Shown: positions 1,695 to 29,300 of the stretch, piece after piece
Position numbering within the stretch: position 1 is the stretch's first letter
Layout of the letters: every line of letters begins with the position of its first letter
Origin: Anaerolineaceae bacterium
Lineage (GTDB): Bacteria > Chloroflexota > Anaerolineae > Promineifilales > Promineifilaceae
DNA length: 64,000 nucleotides
Reading direction: 5' to 3'
NCBI GenBank assembly: GCA_002699125.1
Contig: PABI01000136.1
Coordinates: 1 to 64,000, forward strand
Translations under genes and position numbers: made by a program
Notes under the pieces: generated by a model
Seen by the model: the letters and a program-made list of their open reading frames with translations, nothing else
What the model was told of the DNA's origin: nothing
Database searches by the model: none

Positions 1695-4130
1695 ATGAAC
1701 GAACAGACCATCCAACTGGATATTCCCTTAATACTACCGGACATTGCAGATGCCCGCGATGAGTGCGTTGCTCAACTGGAGTTGGCGCTGGAAAACCACC
1801 GGGGCATCCAGCGCGTCCACGTTAATGAATCCGATCCCCCCCAACTCTGCCTGCACTTCGATCCCAACCTGATCTCGCTAGCGGCTGTGGAGCGTATTGC
1901 GCGTGATGCTGGCAGCAGTTTCACCCAACGCTACCGGCATGAGGCGATACCCTTTACCGGCATGACCAGCGCCGATGCGGCCGATTCACTGGCGGACATC
2001 TTGCGCGACCTGCCCGGCATGTTGCACGCCAACGTCAACTATGCCGCTGGTCTAGCCTTTGTCGCTTATGACATTACCGCGTTGCAACGGCCGTCTATCC
2101 AAAAAACGCTGCGGCGCATGGGCTACAAACCGCTTCAGCCCACAGTTCAGCCGGAAACTGAGCCTGACGAACAAGAGGAAAAGGAAGAACACGCAGGACA
2201 CGATCATGGCAGTGCCCCCGCCTTCTTGCCCCACTGGGTACAAGAGCGATGGACGCTGATTTTGGTGGCGCTGGCCGGCATCTTTTTCCTCGTTGGCTGG
2301 GTAGGTGAAACATTTTTCAACTTACCGGAAACGATTGCTCTGGTCTTTTTTGTCCTCGCCTACGTTGCCGGTGGCTACGACATCGCCACCCACGCCATTC
2401 CGGGGCTGCTCAAAGGTAAATTTGACACCGACGTGCTCATGCTGGCGGCGGCGGCCGGGGCTGCCCTGTTGGGGGAATGGGCCGAAGGCGCTTTTCTGCT
2501 GTTCCTCTTCAGCCTGGGGCACGCCGGTGAACATTATGCGCTGGATCGCGCCCGCAATGCCATCAATGCCCTGGGCGAACTGATGCCTAAGACAGCGCGG
2601 GTCAAAGTGGGAGATGACATCCAGGAACGGCCGGTAGAGCAGGTCAGGGTAAACGATGTCGTGGTCGTCCGCCCTGGCGACCGCATCCCGGTAGACGGCG
2701 AAATTGTGCGCGGCAGTAGCGCCATCGATCAAAGCGCCATTACCGGGGAAAGCGCGCCGGTGAACAAGGCGGAAGGGGATGAGGTTTTTGCCGGAACCAT
2801 TAATCAGGAAAATTCTCTAGATATAAAAGTATCCAAACTGGCACAGGACAATACCCTCAGCCGCGTCATGCAAATGGTGGCCGAAGCCCAGGAACAACAA
2901 AGCCCGACGCAGCAGCTCACCCAGCGCTTCACGGCTAAATTTGTACCTGCTGTGCTCATCTTTGTAGCCCTGGTTATTGTGGTGCCGCCGTTGGTTGGCT
3001 GGATGTCGTGGCAGGACAGCTTCTACCGGGCTATGCTCCTGCTCGTGGCTGCCTCACCATGCGCCCTGGCAATTGGCACACCCGCTTCGGTATTGGCCGG
3101 GATTGCCCAGGCGGCGCGCAACGGTGTCCTGATTAAGGGTGGCGTTCACCTGGAGAATCTGGGCGGTTTGAGCGTGATGGCATTTGACAAGACAGGCACG
3201 CTCACCGAAGGCAAATTCAAAGTGACAGATATGGTGTCGTTGAACGGGACGGATACGGACGATTTGCTGCGTATTGCCGCCGCGGTGGAGCAGCAGTCTA
3301 ATCATCCGCTGGCGCTGGCTGTGGTGCGGGCGGCGCAGGAGAAAGGATTGGATTTGCCCCCGGCCAATGGGCTGGAGAACGTAACCGGGCGCGGCGTGAA
3401 GAGTGAAGTGGGCGGTAAACCGGTGCTCATTGGCTCACTCAAACTCTTCCGCGAAACCAACGGACATACCCTGGAAAACGACGTGGTGCAAACGGTTGAG
3501 CGGCTTGAAAATGAGGGCAAGACAACGATGGCGGTGAGTGAAGACGGCCGTTTCCTCGGCGTCCTGGCCCTGGCCGACACCCCGCGTCCCAACGTAAAGG
3601 AAACATTGCAAGCCCTGCTCGATTTGGGCGTGAAGAAGCTGGTGATGCTCACCGGCGACAATGACGATGTGGCCCGGCAAATTGGCCGGGAAGTAGGTGT
3701 TACCGACGTGCGCGCCGAGCTGCTACCGGAACAAAAGTTGACCGCCATTAAAGAATTACAGCAGGAGCACGGCGATATTGCCATGGCTGGTGATGGCGTC
3801 AACGATGCCCCGGCCCTGGCCACGGCGACGGTGGGCATTGCCATGGGCGGCGCGGGCACGGCCGTTGCTCTGGAAACGGCTGATGTCGCCCTGATGGCTG
3901 ATGATTTGAGCAAACTCCCTTTTGCCGTTGGGCTCAGCCGCGCCACCCGCTCAGTTATTCGTCAAAACCTGATCATATCTCTTGGAATCATCGGCTTGCT
4001 CATTGTCACGTCCGTTTTGGGCGTAGTTGACCTCAGCGGTGCCGTCGTCCTGCATGAAGGCAGCACCATCATCGTCGTCCTCAACGCACTGCGCCTGCTG
4101 CGCTATCGTGATAAGTCCGTAAGGAGGTAG
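1695..4130 (+). CDS. P1B-type heavy-metal-exporting ATPase (P1B-4-like)
   Basis: An 811-residue membrane pump that uses ATP to export a divalent metal. Visible in order: two N-terminal HMA-like domains that lost their CxxC motifs (first RDEC, second GMTSADA); an acidic His-rich linker (EEKEEHAGHDHG, about residue 157); TGES; the TM4 metal motif SPC (AASPCALAIGTP); the phosphorylation motif DKTGTLTEG; the HP motif SNHPLA; MLTGD and GDGVNDAP; and HEGST in the last membrane segment. SPC with HEG(G/S)T is typical of P1B-4 (CoaT/CtpD-type; Co, Zn, Cd or Fe) rather than copper ATPases. AAGGAG at 1684 precedes ATG 1695. It sits in the arsR operon. Confidence 0.92.
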   Translation: MNEQTIQLDIPLILPDIADARDECVAQLELALENHRGIQRVHVNESDPPQLCLHFDPNLISLAAVERIARDAGSSFTQRYRHEAIPFTGMTSADAADSLADILRDLPGMLHANVNYAAGLAFVAYDITALQRPSIQKTLRRMGYKPLQPTVQPETEPDEQEEKEEHAGHDHGSAPAFLPHWVQERWTLILVALAGIFFLVGWVGETFFNLPETIALVFFVLAYVAGGYDIATHAIPGLLKGKFDTDVLMLAAAAGAALLGEWAEGAFLLFLFSLGHAGEHYALDRARNAINALGELMPKTARVKVGDDIQERPVEQVRVNDVVVVRPGDRIPVDGEIVRGSSAIDQSAITGESAPVNKAEGDEVFAGTINQENSLDIKVSKLAQDNTLSRVMQMVAEAQEQQSPTQQLTQRFTAKFVPAVLIFVALVIVVPPLVGWMSWQDSFYRAMLLLVAASPCALAIGTPASVLAGIAQAARNGVLIKGGVHLENLGGLSVMAFDKTGTLTEGKFKVTDMVSLNGTDTDDLLRIAAAVEQQSNHPLALAVVRAAQEKGLDLPPANGLENVTGRGVKSEVGGKPVLIGSLKLFRETNGHTLENDVVQTVERLENEGKTTMAVSEDGRFLGVLALADTPRPNVKETLQALLDLGVKKLVMLTGDNDDVARQIGREVGVTDVRAELLPEQKLTAIKELQQEHGDIAMAGDGVNDAPALATATVGIAMGGAGTAVALETADVALMADDLSKLPFAVGLSRATRSVIRQNLIISLGIIGLLIVTSVLGVVDLSGAVVLHEGSTIIVVLNALRLLRYRDKSVRR

Positions 4131-22892: not shown

Positions 22893-23483
22893 ATGAATAC
22901 GCAGTTTTGTAGGCAGTGTGATTCACGCTTAGAATCAAACGCTCGTGTATGCTCGACCTGTGGCGCGGTCGTTTCCTCACAAAGTTCCCCTCCGCCTTCA
23001 CACGATGAAGGGCAGAGGCGACCGTTTCCCTGGCCGCTGCTACTAATTACTACAGGACCTCTCTTGTTAGCTGTGATAGTGGGTGTCTCGATGTATGTAG
23101 CAAACCCCCAGACCGTTAATGCACAAATCACCATAAAAAATGCCTGGGTACGCCCAGCAATCGTGGGGCAAAACAGCGCCGTCTATTTTCAGTTAGTTAA
23201 TGAAGGTCTAACAAGTGACGCTTTAGTTGGCGCAGCCAGTTTGATAGCAACAGCCGAATTGCACCAGACAATTGAAAAGGAAGATGGCGTTATGGGCATG
23301 ATACCTTTAAATAGGGTAGACATTCCAGCTCAGTCTGAAGTCGAACTCACGCCAGGGGGGAAGCATATCATGCTTATCAACCTGACCCAACCGTTAACGG
23401 TCGGTGAAAATGTGTCGTTGACTCTAAATTTTGAACACACTGGCAACATTGTCTTTGAAGCGGAAGTTCGTTCATTACCTTGA
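22893..23483 (+). CDS. Zinc-ribbon, membrane-anchored PCuAC copper chaperone
   Basis: A 196-residue protein. The cytoplasmic N-terminus is a zinc ribbon with two CxxC pairs (FCRQC and CSTC). One membrane helix and an external PCuAC domain follow, with the copper(I) site pattern: His in ATAELHQT, Met in DGVMGM, then HIM in GGKHIMLI. PCuAC delivers copper to cytochrome oxidase CuA with SCO proteins, and a SCO1 gene lies downstream (25740). The N-terminal ribbon-helix module is shared with the rhodanese at 26337. A second PCuAC without the ribbon is at 26968. An extended -10-like TTTTGCTAAAAT lies at 22868. Confidence 0.85.
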   Translation: MNTQFCRQCDSRLESNARVCSTCGAVVSSQSSPPPSHDEGQRRPFPWPLLLITTGPLLLAVIVGVSMYVANPQTVNAQITIKNAWVRPAIVGQNSAVYFQLVNEGLTSDALVGAASLIATAELHQTIEKEDGVMGMIPLNRVDIPAQSEVELTPGGKHIMLINLTQPLTVGENVSLTLNFEHTGNIVFEAEVRSLP

Positions 23484-23936: not shown

Positions 23937-24065
23937 ACACCATTTTTTTCACCCCTTTACCACACACTTCCCAGCATTGTTGTTCTGAATTGCTGGGCAA
24001 AAAACGATGGCGAACCTAATACCGGTTCACGTCGGTTACGTTTCTGTTCATTTTAGGAGTTTTCA

Positions 24066-24797
24066 ATGACAAAAAAATCAACTCGATCGGTGCGAGTGCG
24101 CCGGCAAGAAATGCAAGACAGAAAGAAAAGGCAACGTCTTGTGACGGCCCTGGTCGTCACCGGCAGCCTGATAGCCCTGGTGGCCATTGGGTTCCTGGCG
24201 CGGCAGATCACCCGCACCACCCCCGAAGATGTTACGCTACCGGAATCCCTCACGCCGCCGCCTGACGCCGACGGTATGGCCTGGGGGCCAGTCGATGCCC
24301 CGGTGGTTGTGGAAGAATTCAGCGACTTTCAATGACCGTTCTGCCGGCAATTTGCCACTGACGCGGGGCGTCAGCTAGAAGAAGTTTATGCAAGCAGCAG
24401 CCTGGTTCGTTTTGAATATAAAAACTTTGCCGTGATTGGTCCGGAATCTATCCGCGCCGCTGAAGCGGCCGCCTGCGCCAATGAACAAGGCCAGTTCTGG
24501 CCCTATCATGACACGCTCTTCGCCAATCAGCGCGGCGAAAACCAGGGCGCTTTTCGTGATGATACGCTCCAGGCGTTTGCCGCCGCCCTGGGCCTGGATG
24601 AGGCGGCGTTTAATGCCTGTCTGGATTCCGGTAGATACCGGGACGAGGTGCAGGCGGAAACGGCCGCCGGTCAGGAGCGGGGCGTGCGCTCGACGCCCAC
24701 CCTGTTTATCAACGGGGAAAAGGTTGAAGGTGCCATCCCCTTTGACCAACTGCAACCGATGATTGAGGCCGCATTAGCCAATGCGACTTCAGAATAA
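24066..24797 (+). CDS. DsbA-like thiol oxidoreductase, probable selenoprotein (UPFC)
   Basis: Read through the in-frame TGA at 24333-24335, this is one 243-residue membrane-anchored thioredoxin-fold protein (DSBA/BdbD type). It has a basic N-terminus, one helix (LVTALVVTGSLIALVAIGFL), EEFSDFQ, then U90-P-F-C93 and RQFATDAG. Family members read FSDFQCPFC, so TGA sits exactly on the first catalytic Cys. The later motif RGVRSTPTLFINGE (cis-Pro) is intact and the frame stays open on both sides. A 7-bp hairpin follows the TGA (24358-24374). AGGAG precedes ATG 24066. TGA serves as a normal stop elsewhere, for example at 5974 and 11712. A DsbB fusion partner is 11 nt downstream. Confidence 0.82.
24358..24374 (+). 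promoter_or_regulatory. Candidate bacterial SECIS hairpin
   Basis: CTGACGC-GGG-GCGTCAG is a perfect 7-bp stem with an all-G loop, starting 22 nt after the TGA at 24333-24335; the loop is about 30 nt downstream. Bacterial SECIS elements lie within the coding region just after UGA and carry a guanosine in the apical loop roughly 16-37 nt away, which this fits. SelB binding is inferred. Confidence 0.6.
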
Positions 24798-24808
24798 AGT
24801 AAACAACA

Positions 24809-25735
24809 ATGACCAAGACCAAAGTCTGGCTATTTCTACAGGATTATGGCGGCATTCTGGCGCTGGTTGTGGCTGTGACGGCCACATTGGGCAGCCTGTA
24901 CTTTAGCGAAGTTGCCGGGTTTGTCCCCTGCACCCTCTGTTGGTACCAGCGCATCCTCATGTATCCACTCACCTTCATCACGTTGGTAGGCATTATCAAA
25001 CAAGATGAGTTCCTTCCTGCCTACGTGCTGCCTTTTTCCTTGATCGGCGTGGGCGTGTCCGGTTATCATGTTCTTATTCAAAACGGCGTCTTCAGCCATC
25101 CGGCCACCTGTACGGTGGGTGTGCCGTGCAGCTTACGCTACATTAACTACCTGGGGTTTATCACCATTCCCCTGCTGGCTTTCACGGCGTTCACGCTCAT
25201 TACGGCCGTCATGCTGGCCACACGCCGGGCTTTTTCTCACGAATTCTGGGACGAGCATGACGATTTTGAGAACGACGCCTCAGAGCACGCTACTTCCCAG
25301 ACCCGGACGGTGCCATACAAATGGGGCGCGCCTCTGGGCGTCGTTTTGCTGCTCGTCATGCTGGTTACGCTGGCCGCATTTGGCGCCAGCGAAGCGCCGG
25401 AAAATCCACTTTCTGTCACGGCCTCGACCGGTTCCGTTTCTGGCGAAGCGCTGTTTCGGCAGATAACGCTGGGAGACGCACCCGGCTGCACTGCCTGCCA
25501 TTCCCTGGAACCAGGAACAGTGATCGTGGGGCCTTCTATGGCCGGTATTGCTGACCAGGCTACGGTGCGCGTTCCGGGCCAGTCGGCTGAAGCGTATCTG
25601 CAACAGGCTATCGTCAACCCCGATGCCCACGTGGTAGACGGCTTCACAGCAGGGGTCATGTATCAAAATTATGAGGAAGCGTTGACCAAAGAACAAATAG
25701 ATGCTCTGGTCGCTTTCTTGCTAACATTGGAGTAG
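24809..25735 (+). CDS. DsbB/BdbC-like disulfide oxidoreductase fused to cytochrome c
   Basis: A 308-residue fusion. Residues about 1-155 form the four-helix DsbB/BdbC domain with CTLC after the first helix and the second Cys pair in CTVGVPC. After an acidic loop and one more membrane helix comes a class I cytochrome c with haem motif CTACH and probable Met ligand in TAGVMYQNY. DsbB reoxidises DsbA and passes electrons to quinone; the fused haem could pass them directly to the respiratory chain. It follows the DsbA-like selenoprotein candidate by 11 nt, which makes them a natural pair. Confidence 0.87.
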
Positions 25736-25739
25736 AGAG

Positions 25740-26321
25740 ATGCCTGGGAAAATGCGTTTGCTCTTCTGGTTAGGACTGGCCCTGCTGTTGGCGGCCTGCC
25801 AACCTTATACGTTTAAGGGAACCGAATACCCGGAGGGCATATCAGCTGAGGACTTTACGCTAACGATGACGGAGGGACGGCCGTTTCGCCTCAGCGATCA
25901 ACGGGGCAAGATCGTGCTCATGTTTTTTGGCTTTACCTCCTGCCCGGATGTCTGCCCAACGACATTGGCCGAAGCGAAGCGAATTATGGAAGGATTAGGC
26001 GATGAGACCGAAAACGTGCGGTTTGTCTTTATTACCGTGGATCCGGAGCGGGATACGCCAGAGCAACTGGGCCAATATGTCTCCAACTTTCACTCGGAAA
26101 TTATCGGCCTGACCGGAACACCTGAGGAACTACAAACGGTATTTGACGCTTACGGCATCTATGCGGCCAAAGTGCCGCTGGAAGGTTCGGCCGCCGGGTA
26201 CACGATGGAACATACCGCCCGCGTCTTTCTGGTAGACCAGGACGGCCGTTTGCGCCTGAGTTATGCTTTTGGCACGCCTGATGAGGACATCTTGCAAGAT
26301 GTTCAATACCTTTTAAGATAA
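25740..26321 (+). CDS. SCO1/SenC-family copper metallochaperone lipoprotein
   Basis: A 193-residue lipoprotein (lipobox LLAACQ) with a thioredoxin fold. The copper-site Cys pair is in TSCPDVCPTT (CxxxC) and the third ligand His is in MEHTARVFLVD. SCO proteins mature the CuA site of cytochrome oxidase and handle thiol redox. It starts 4 nt after the DsbB fusion and is followed by the rhodanese gene, within a run that also encodes two PCuAC chaperones. Confidence 0.92.
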   Translation: MPGKMRLLFWLGLALLLAACQPYTFKGTEYPEGISAEDFTLTMTEGRPFRLSDQRGKIVLMFFGFTSCPDVCPTTLAEAKRIMEGLGDETENVRFVFITVDPERDTPEQLGQYVSNFHSEIIGLTGTPEELQTVFDAYGIYAAKVPLEGSAAGYTMEHTARVFLVDQDGRLRLSYAFGTPDEDILQDVQYLLR

Positions 26322-26336
26322 TTGGAGAGAAAATCT

Positions 26337-26927
26337 ATGTCTAACCAATTTTGCACCCAATGCGGTGAACGCCTGGAGCCCGCTGCCCGCTTCTGCACGG
26401 CCTGTGGCACGGCCGTTGCCAGGGCAACGGCCACAAAAGCGTCACGCCAACCTGCTAAAATGCGCCGACCAATTCCCTGGCTGCCACTCATTCTCGTTAT
26501 CGGCGGTGGGCTTATTACGCTGGGCTTACTGTTGTACCAGGCCAATCCGCCATCCGTAGTTGACGTACCCGATGAGCACAACGACTCCGGCCTGCCCTAC
26601 CCAGATGTGCCGCGTATCTCCGTGGCAGAAACCAGAGAACGGTTTGAGAATGGCACGGCCGTCATCGTAGATGTACGCAGCGCCCAGGAACACGCCGAGG
26701 CGCACATCCCCGATGCGCTTTCTATTCCTTTGAGTGAGCTTCAGGCCCGATACCAGGAGCTGCCGCGCGACGCGGAAATTATTACCTACTGCACCTGACC
26801 AAGCGAAGAATCCAGCGCCCGTGCGGCTGCTATCCTAATGGAACTCGGTTATACAAATGTGAAAGCCATTCGTGGGGGGTTAGCTGCCTGGGAAGAGGCA
26901 GGACACCCAATGGAAAGAGGCTCGTAA
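26337..26927 (+). CDS. Zinc-ribbon membrane rhodanese, probable selenoprotein (CTU)
   Basis: Read through the in-frame TGA at 26796-26798, this is a 196-residue protein. It has an N-terminal zinc ribbon (CTQC and CTAC), one membrane helix and an external rhodanese domain (VIVDVRSAQEHAEAHIPDA). The active-site loop is IITYC152-T-U154-PSEESSARAA, and the domain then ends normally (AIRGGLAAWEEAGHPM). Rhodaneses of this subtype read YCxCP, so TGA falls on the second Cys. Without readthrough the protein would lose its last helices. ATG 26337 follows GGAGAG. The ribbon-helix module matches that of the PCuAC at 22893. Confidence 0.78.
26813..26829 (+). promoter_or_regulatory. Candidate SECIS-like hairpin in rhodanese gene
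   Basis: CAGCGC-CCGT-GC(g)GCTG gives a 6-bp stem with one bulged G. The loop starts about 21 nt after the TGA (26796-26798) and contains one G. It fits the expected distance but is weaker than the hairpin in the DsbA-like gene. Confidence 0.4.
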
Positions 26928-26967
26928 TATCCCATGGGCGCGAACACCATTTTTAAGGATCAGGCAT

Positions 26968-27405
26968 ATGGCATATAAAAAATTGTTGGTCTATTTCGTT
27001 CTTCCAATGCTGCTGGCTGCTTGTACCAGCAGCCCGCCCCATACCCGAATCAGTGTCAATAACGCCTGGGTACGTCCAGCAGAAGCGGGACAAAACAGCG
27101 CCGTTTATTTTCAGATAGTAAATGAAGGTCGAATGGGCGATGTATTGGTGAGTGCATCCAGTTCGATTGCAACGGCTGAAATGCATGAGTCGGTAGAAAG
27201 AGAAAATGGCGTTATGGGCATGTCCCCATTAAGTAGCGTAGACGTTCCAGCTCAGTCTGAAGTTGAATTCAAGCCAGGCGGCATGCATATCATGCTCATT
27301 AACCTTACCCAACCATTGACTGCCGACGATAGCATACCCTTGACACTGCATTTTGAGCATGGCGGCAAAGCCGTCTTTGAAGCAGAAGTTCGCTCATTAC
27401 CCTAA
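26968..27405 (+). CDS. PCuAC-type copper chaperone lipoprotein
   Basis: A 145-residue lipoprotein (lipobox LLAACT). The domain repeats that of the protein at 22893, with long shared stretches (NAWVRPA, GQNSAVYFQ, FEAEVRSLP). The copper(I) site is complete: His in AEMHES, Met in NGVMGM, and HIM in GGMHIM. This copy is anchored by lipid rather than a ribbon-helix module. It lies between the rhodanese and YtkA genes and probably supplies Cu(I) with SCO1. Confidence 0.9.
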   Translation: MAYKKLLVYFVLPMLLAACTSSPPHTRISVNNAWVRPAEAGQNSAVYFQIVNEGRMGDVLVSASSSIATAEMHESVERENGVMGMSPLSSVDVPAQSEVEFKPGGMHIMLINLTQPLTADDSIPLTLHFEHGGKAVFEAEVRSLP

Positions 27406-27842: not shown

Positions 27843-29300
27843 ATGATACCGCTCCAGGATATTACCGTCGCCAAAGAAAACAGCAGCCCTATCTACCAGC
27901 CGCAGCCCCGCTTTGATCTGCTGCGCCTGCCCCTGCTGGGGCGCTGGCTGCGCTGGCGCTGGGGTCGGCTGCTGTTTCAAATTCCCCTGCTGCTGCTGGC
28001 GCTGCTGATGATCTACGATGGCTTTACCGGACCGAAAATTGCGGGGCAAAATGTGGCCACGGTCACAGCCTGGGTCCATTACCGCGGTCTGGTGATGCTG
28101 GCGCTGCTGTTAGTGGGCAATTTGTTTTGCATGAGCTGCCCCTTTACCCTGCCGCGCACTGTGGCGCATCGTCTCAGCGGCAACGGCCGTCGCTGGCCGC
28201 AGGCGCTGCGCAACAAATGGGTGGCCATAGCCGTCCTGGTTCTCTTCTTTTTTCTTTACGAATGGTTGGACCTGTGGGCCAGCCCCTGGCTCACCGCCTG
28301 GGTCATTGTGGGCTACTTCCTGGCCGCCTTTTTGTTAGAGGCGGTCTTTGCCGAATCCCCCTTTTGCAAATACGTCTGCCCGCTGGGTAGCTTCAATTTC
28401 GTTAGCAGCACTGTCTCGCCGTTTCAGATTACGACCCGCGATGCCGAAACGTGCCGCACCTGCCCCGGCAAAGAGTGCGTCAACGGCAGCCCGCAGGCGC
28501 TGGGCTGTGGCACGGAACTGTTCGTGCCGCAGATACAGAGTAATATGGATTGTGTTTTTTGTCTGGATTGCGCCCGCGCCTGTCCCTACGACAATGTGGC
28601 CCTGGCGGCCCGTCGGCCGGGAGAAGAATTGACCCAGGGCGCGTGGCCGCGCCGCTGGGATATGGCCTTCCTGGTACTGGTATTTGCTTTTGCCGGCGTG
28701 AGCAACGCCTTTGGCATGGTACCGCCCTTTTACGCGCTGGAGCAGTGGCTGGCCGCCCGCCTGCATATAACAAACGAAGGGGTTTTGCTCCTGATTATCT
28801 TTGGCGTGATAAATGTATTGTTGCCGGCAGGCGTTGGCCTGGGCACCGCCTGGCTCAGCCGTCGGTTGACTCGCAAGCGCGAACCATTGCGAGTGGCTTT
28901 GAGCCGCTACACGCCGACCGTTATGCCGCTGGCGTTTTCAATCTGGCTGGCCCATTATGGCTTTCATTTTGCTACCGGCGCTCTGGCAATTATTCCCGTT
29001 ACGCAAAATTTCTTGCTGGATCACGGCCTGAACTGGCTGGGAACTGCACCCACCTGGTCGCTGGCGGCGCTGCTGCCCGGCTCGTGGCTACTGCCGCTGC
29101 AAGTGCTTATTATGCTGGCCGGCTTTGGCGGCAGCCTGATGGTAGCCGATGAGATTAGCCGCCGCGATTTTGCAGATCGACGGACGGCGATGTTGTCCCT
29201 GCTGCCCTGGGTGTTGGTTTTACTTAGTTTAGCCGTTGCCGCGCTGGTAATGTTTAACCTGCCCATGGAGATGCGCGGCACGATTCAGTTGAATGGATAA
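27843..29300 (+). CDS. NapH/CcoG-like polyferredoxin membrane protein
   Basis: A 485-residue protein with about ten membrane helices. The first half carries the 4Fe-4S-binding loop of the NosR/NapH/CcoG group: CMSCP and CKYVCPLGSF, then CRTCPGKEC and CVFCLDCARACP, enough Cys for two clusters. Family members move electrons across the membrane or aid copper-oxidase assembly; CcoG reduces copper. With PCuAC, SCO and YtkA neighbours, a role in copper delivery or reduction is likely. It overlaps the next gene by 8 nt. Confidence 0.83.
   Translation: MIPLQDITVAKENSSPIYQPQPRFDLLRLPLLGRWLRWRWGRLLFQIPLLLLALLMIYDGFTGPKIAGQNVATVTAWVHYRGLVMLALLLVGNLFCMSCPFTLPRTVAHRLSGNGRRWPQALRNKWVAIAVLVLFFFLYEWLDLWASPWLTAWVIVGYFLAAFLLEAVFAESPFCKYVCPLGSFNFVSSTVSPFQITTRDAETCRTCPGKECVNGSPQALGCGTELFVPQIQSNMDCVFCLDCARACPYDNVALAARRPGEELTQGAWPRRWDMAFLVLVFAFAGVSNAFGMVPPFYALEQWLAARLHITNEGVLLLIIFGVINVLLPAGVGLGTAWLSRRLTRKREPLRVALSRYTPTVMPLAFSIWLAHYGFHFATGALAIIPVTQNFLLDHGLNWLGTAPTWSLAALLPGSWLLPLQVLIMLAGFGGSLMVADEISRRDFADRRTAMLSLLPWVLVLLSLAVAALVMFNLPMEMRGTIQLNG

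Follow-up and report, generated by a model that had tools for sequence, protein, structure and literature searches.

Selenoproteins with a UxxC active site that resemble DsbA or DsbG were found in the Sargasso Sea in 2005 (PMC1088965). The families were described in 2005-2006, the DsbG-like one from few sequences, and both are included in lists of 2022 and 2026 (PMC9312934, PMC13188914). Annotation software routinely truncates the genes of selenoproteins.

We analysed a stretch of 64,000 nucleotides from an Anaerolineaceae bacterium (the window), for which an earlier note had proposed a selenoprotein of the DsbA type; that note mentioned neither the second selenocysteine (Sec) gene about 2 kb downstream nor the prior descriptions of such families. 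The DsbA-like gene is, with high probability, a genuine selenoprotein gene in which the UGA at 24333 is read as selenocysteine, and its product (Sec-DsbA) is a well-supported further member of a selenoprotein type already known in other bacteria. Features of the locus are listed in Table 1.

Table 1. Features of the Sec-DsbA gene cluster (positions in the window)
Feature	Position	Strand	Remarks
Upstream PCu(A)C copper chaperone with zinc ribbon	22893..23483	+	PF04314, E 4e-32
Ribosome-binding-like AGGAG	24055..24059	+	6 nt 5' of the ATG, read from the sequence
Probable Sec-containing DsbA-like (Thioredoxin_4) protein gene	24066..24797	+	243 aa
Predicted bacterial SECIS hairpin	24358..24374	+	7-bp stem, GGG loop at 24365-24367, starts 22 nt past the UGA
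DsbB-like disulfide oxidoreductase with C-terminal cytochrome c domain (CTACH)	24809..25735	+	PF02600, PF00034
SCO1/SenC copper chaperone and thiol protein	25740..26321	+	PF02630, E 6e-49
Predicted zinc-ribbon/transmembrane/rhodanese selenoprotein gene, CxU	26322..26927	+	start TTG 26322 or ATG 26337
Predicted rhodanese selenocysteine UGA (YCTU)	26796..26798	+	from homologue alignment
Probable rhodanese SECIS	26814..26831	+	stem AGC-GCC with one bulged U; loop CGUGC
Second PCu(A)C copper chaperone	26968..27405	+	PF04314, E 5e-35

The DsbA-like gene and its homologues

Between 24066 and 24794 the reading frame has a single interruption, the TGA at 24333-24335: the gene consists of an ATG, 89 codons, the TGA as codon 90, 153 further codons and a TAA (24795-24797). 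The TGA lies between EEFSDFQ and PFCRQFA and replaces the first cysteine of the CPFC motif, precisely where the earlier note had placed it. With cysteine substituted for the UGA codon, the translation has a match to Thioredoxin_4 (PF13462, E 1e-34) and a weaker one to DSBA (PF01323, E 1e-20); both matches span the UGA, in agreement with the earlier description of a frame that is open on either side and has intact DsbA motifs. The predicted active site is U90-P-F-C93, with C137 and C185 as additional cysteines, and the TP motif (T210-P211) is invariant in an alignment of 25 rows. At the sequence level, the protein has the active site (CxxC or UxxC) and the proline motif of a DsbA thiol oxidase, as well as the combination of PF13462 or PF01323 with UxxC that is characteristic of the DsbA/DsbG-like UxxC family. 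About residues 24-44 are predicted to form an N-terminal transmembrane anchor, and the closest solved structures are of the DsbA/BdbD type.

DsbA homologues were collected by a class-wide search and from GTDB contigs, with distinct copies counted. At the column of the UGA, 43 have TGA, 114 have TGC or TGT and two have other codons; the UGA of the window is thus aligned with the cysteine of homologues, and there is conservation on both sides of it. The nearest homologue (L051) comes from a separate Chloroflexota MAG and also has TGA, with 97% protein identity and differences at 10 of 732 bases. The second nearest (L052, 75% identity) has TGA too and the third (L053, Ardenticatenaceae) has TGC. 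In the tree, a Cys-type pair (L053 and L023) is sister to the window gene and L051, and there were at least six switches between Sec and Cys as judged by well-supported branches, ten on the best tree. In the comparison with L052, dN/dS falls from 0.19 upstream of the UGA to 0.10 downstream of it, and in the comparison with L022 from 0.19 to 0.14; dS is high in both comparisons and the ratios are approximate. The values past the UGA indicate purifying selection, and therefore that the downstream part is translated and kept as a protein.

Several homologues have unusual arrangements. The DsbA gene of L052 contains, besides its Sec UGA, an in-frame TAA (3535-3537), caused by either mutation or an assembly error. 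One genome (G155; L049 / L165) has three tandem Sec-type DsbA genes, each with the UGA at the motif. In L136 and L137, a Sec-type DsbA domain is part of a long fusion protein, and a second DsbA-like match at this locus has serine codons in the column of the active site (TCC, TCG). Another genome (G034) has both Cys and Sec paralogues (L024 and L131), and its Cys copy retains five of the seven hairpin pairs described below, perhaps as a relic SECIS.

A SECIS-like hairpin that covaries in the TGA genes

The perfect 7-bp hairpin with GGG loop, reported in the earlier note at 22 nt past the UGA, is present (CTGACGC-GGG-GCGTCAG); it has a minimum free energy (MFE) of -9.2 kcal/mol and z = -3.7 against shuffles of itself. 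In a published model of bacterial SECIS elements (PMC13188914), an upper stem of 4-16 bp carries an apical loop of 3-9 nt with G in its first two positions, the distance from the UGA to this loop is 16-37 nt and the MFE is -7.5 kcal/mol or lower. With its 3-nt loop, 7-bp stem, GGG, distance of 29 nt and the MFE given above, the hairpin of the window agrees with this model in all these respects.

Across the 43 TGA genes, positions 26-32 past the UGA pair with positions 36-42 in 90.9% of cells, and all seven pairs have two-sided changes; examples of compensated stems are CTGACGC/GCGTCAG, CTGGCGC/GCGCCAG and CCGACTC/GGGTCGG. Covariation is 0.514, compared to 0.198 in shuffled alignments, and none of 500 shuffles was as high. 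When the partner was slid by 1-3 columns as a control, pairing in the TGA genes was at most 51%, and in the Cys genes 35% of cells of the same columns are paired. Because the sequences are related, we added a null that shuffles synonymous codons and keeps the protein: pairing exceeds it with z = 14.5 in the Sec genes, compared to z = -0.6 in the Cys genes, and conservation of the hairpin merely via the amino acid sequence is rejected by this null. For the window gene alone, 0.6% of such shuffles give an equally good hairpin; across the 43 homologues, a chance origin of the hairpin is excluded. An MFE of -7.5 kcal/mol or lower for nucleotides 24-45 was found in 35 of 43 Sec genes and in 1 of 114 Cys genes, and in all but one of the 43 Sec genes (42) the loop begins with G.

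The 60 nt from the UGA onwards fold no better than shuffles (z = 0.09), because a longer-range fold that uses UGA-proximal bases competes with the hairpin; when the first ~12 nt or more are omitted, as they would be under a ribosome, the pairs of the hairpin form with a probability of 0.84-1.0. Six Sec homologues (L025, L095, L102, L141, L149 and L156) have no good hairpin at exactly this place and may have the hairpin in another register or be doubtful copies. A search of positions 24000-27400 against Rfam gave no match.

Selenocysteine machinery

The assembly comprises 8.05 Mb in 188 contigs and has a completeness of 96.1 and a contamination of 8.39. It contains selA (579 bits), selB (337 bits), selD (375 bits, with its own canonical Sec UGA in 'SCAGU') and a tRNA-Sec with the anticodon UCA (71.8 bits). 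All four components, selA, selB, selC and selD, are therefore found in the same genome bin; with an estimated bin contamination of 8.39%, the contigs that carry these genes might, in principle, stem from another organism. Across the class, selA is present in 249 of 298 sampled genomes. Not counting the genome studied here, 30 of the 32 sampled class genomes with TGA at the DsbA column have SelA, and the two that lack it are only 70% and 81% complete. As selA is so common in the class, the association between TGA-DsbA and selA has little power and is consistent with Sec insertion rather than decisive. The assembly also has a second selB-like fragment (G000:C136:37-912; 175.7 bits, below the selB cut-off) with an open frame of 400 amino acids; it is close to a contig end and adjoins a tRNA-Trp.

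Alternative readings of the UGA

Under the standard code, UGA 24333 terminates the frame, which would make the DsbA gene a broken one, either by a nonsense mutation or by a sequencing error, and the later in-frame TAA of L052 shows that broken or misread copies do occur. However, TGA is at exactly the same column in 43 homologues, dN/dS is 0.10-0.14 past it and the hairpin covaries: a true stop is hardly credible, and both pseudogene and sequencing error are refuted by the conservation. Only marginally less improbable is that the UGA is read as cysteine or tryptophan, independent of selenium, by a suppressor tRNA or under an altered code. Cysteine would be tolerable at this position, being the residue of the homologues, but TGA serves as an ordinary stop in many genes of the window, as the earlier note had stated: it ends 17 of the 58 non-overlapping ORFs in a mechanically selected set, the second Sec site being among the 17. 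Moreover, of the candidate tRNAs examined, the single one with a UCA anticodon is a normal tRNA-Sec, and the SECIS-type hairpin is confined to genes with TGA; a changed genetic code is rejected. Selenocysteine is thus by far the preferred reading, and the earlier call of a probable selenoprotein is supported by checks that the note itself had named: the sel genes are in the same assembly, the homologues have TGA or TGC/TGT at the column (with the two exceptions mentioned) and the hairpin fits the SECIS model and covaries in TGA genes only.

The gene cluster contains a second predicted selenoprotein

All genes of the cluster are on the forward strand, in the order PCu(A)C, Sec-DsbA, DsbB-cytochrome c, SCO1, Sec-rhodanese, PCu(A)C. 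The ATG of the DsbB-cytochrome c fusion is 11 nt from the DsbA stop codon, and the fusion scores 135.7 bits with NF002849, above the cut-off of 124. The order of the whole cluster is retained in L051, and the part from DsbA to rhodanese in L052; in both, the fusion is full length and beside the DsbA gene, while only the DsbB part was found in L053 and L158. In the open-access literature, we found no paper on a DsbB-cytochrome c fusion in Chloroflexi. Further downstream (27843-29300) there is a predicted membrane protein with cysteine-rich, ferredoxin-like motifs, with no Pfam match at E 0.001.

The listed ORF 26322-26798 ends at a UGA that lies within a rhodanese domain, in the context YCT-U-PSEESS, a predicted CxU site. 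In-frame TGA is found in most rhodanese homologues of the class down to E 1e-18 and in nearly all of the better-scoring ones, and the aligned codon is TGA in 32 of 32 copies examined. Mostly, these homologues have a hairpin with a GCGCC/GGCGC stem and a CGTGC loop, and L182 and L189 have changes on both sides of the stem; the hairpin in the window is weaker (-6.5 kcal/mol) than that of most homologues. The cluster thus holds a second predicted selenoprotein gene, encoding a rhodanese of a family that is predominantly of the Sec type in the class. In L162 and L164, a rhodanese gene is found about 5 kb from the Sec-DsbA gene.

Proposed mechanism and role

DsbA-type proteins donate a disulfide to their substrates and are re-oxidised by DsbB. 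In the proposed mechanism, SelB would bind the hairpin at 24358-24374 and, with Sec-tRNA(UCA), cause UGA 24333 to be read as selenocysteine; for SelB, binding is inferred. The product would be a membrane-anchored, extracytoplasmic DsbA-like protein, in which Sec90 would provide the exposed attacking atom and the U90-C93 selenenyl-sulfide would be handed to substrate thiols. As the earlier note remarked, selenocysteine at this position may alter the redox potential and the speed of the enzyme, which is chemically plausible. Fold and gene order suggest that the DsbB-cytochrome c fusion would re-oxidise Sec-DsbA and pass the electrons to the respiratory chain, and that DsbB has its own cytochrome c suggests that this transfer is direct. 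The fusion is a testable partner for Sec-DsbA.

Sec-DsbA is most likely a thiol-disulfide exchange enzyme. For the direction of this exchange, judged by fold and gene order, oxidation of extracytoplasmic thiols is somewhat favoured. The protein could instead act mainly as a reductase in the manner of TlpA/ResA, its targets being copper-site thiols of SCO1 and of the CuA site of the oxidase, and the presence of SCO1 and two PCu(A)C genes in the same cluster would suit such a role. We nevertheless regard it as rather unlikely: the nearest solved structures are those of DsbA/BdbD-type proteins, the adjacent gene is DsbB-like and a DsbB normally oxidises its partner, and the closest Cys-type relatives also adjoin a DsbB gene. 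Copper-protein thiols may be among the substrates of Sec-DsbA, a weaker proposal made from the SCO1 and PCuAC neighbours. Tentatively, and with doubt, the cluster might be seen as a dedicated extracytoplasmic selenium redox module of Chloroflexota, in which Sec-DsbA, beside Sec-rhodanese, SCO1 and PCu(A)C, would send electrons via DsbB-cytochrome c and serve either oxidative folding or the maturation of copper sites, Sec and Cys having repeatedly replaced each other in DsbA.

Comparison with known selenoprotein families

A large collection of DsbA-like proteins in Sec and Cys form, in which the SECIS comes and goes with the UGA, is a clean natural experiment that addresses why bacteria employ selenium in extracytoplasmic thiol chemistry. 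Among open-access papers, we found no earlier description of the class-wide set, of the Sec/Cys switching or of the cluster with two selenoproteins.

The families themselves are known. The best NCBIfam match of the DsbA-like protein is NF041057, the Rcas_1661 family thioredoxin-like (seleno)lipoprotein, a model that by its name covers Sec and Cys forms and that matches 25 of 25 scanned members of the DsbA-like family. With 134.7 bits, the window protein falls short of the curated cut-off (190), and it differs from the lipoproteins by having a transmembrane anchor; a lipobox cysteine could not be made out close to its N-terminus. By description, it resembles the DsbG-like selenoprotein family (PF13462 / NF041057; PMC9312934, PMC13188914, PMC1088965), with which it shares PF13462 and UxxC, and DsbA-like selenoprotein form 1 (PF01323; PMC1088965, PMC5029168), with which it shares PF01323 and the position of the Sec, although PF13462 fits the window protein better than PF01323. 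For the rhodanese, the best NCBIfam match is NF041203 (rhodanese_LYCAU; 83 bits, short of the curated cut-off, 115), the Rhodanese-like selenoprotein form 3 (PMC13188914); the two have the CxU motif in common (YCTU in the window), but the window protein has an extra zinc ribbon and transmembrane segment. To these known families, the locus and its homologues add a class-wide set of Sec and Cys forms, the switching between both in DsbA, and a cluster of two predicted selenoproteins together with DsbB-cytochrome c, SCO1 and PCuAC.
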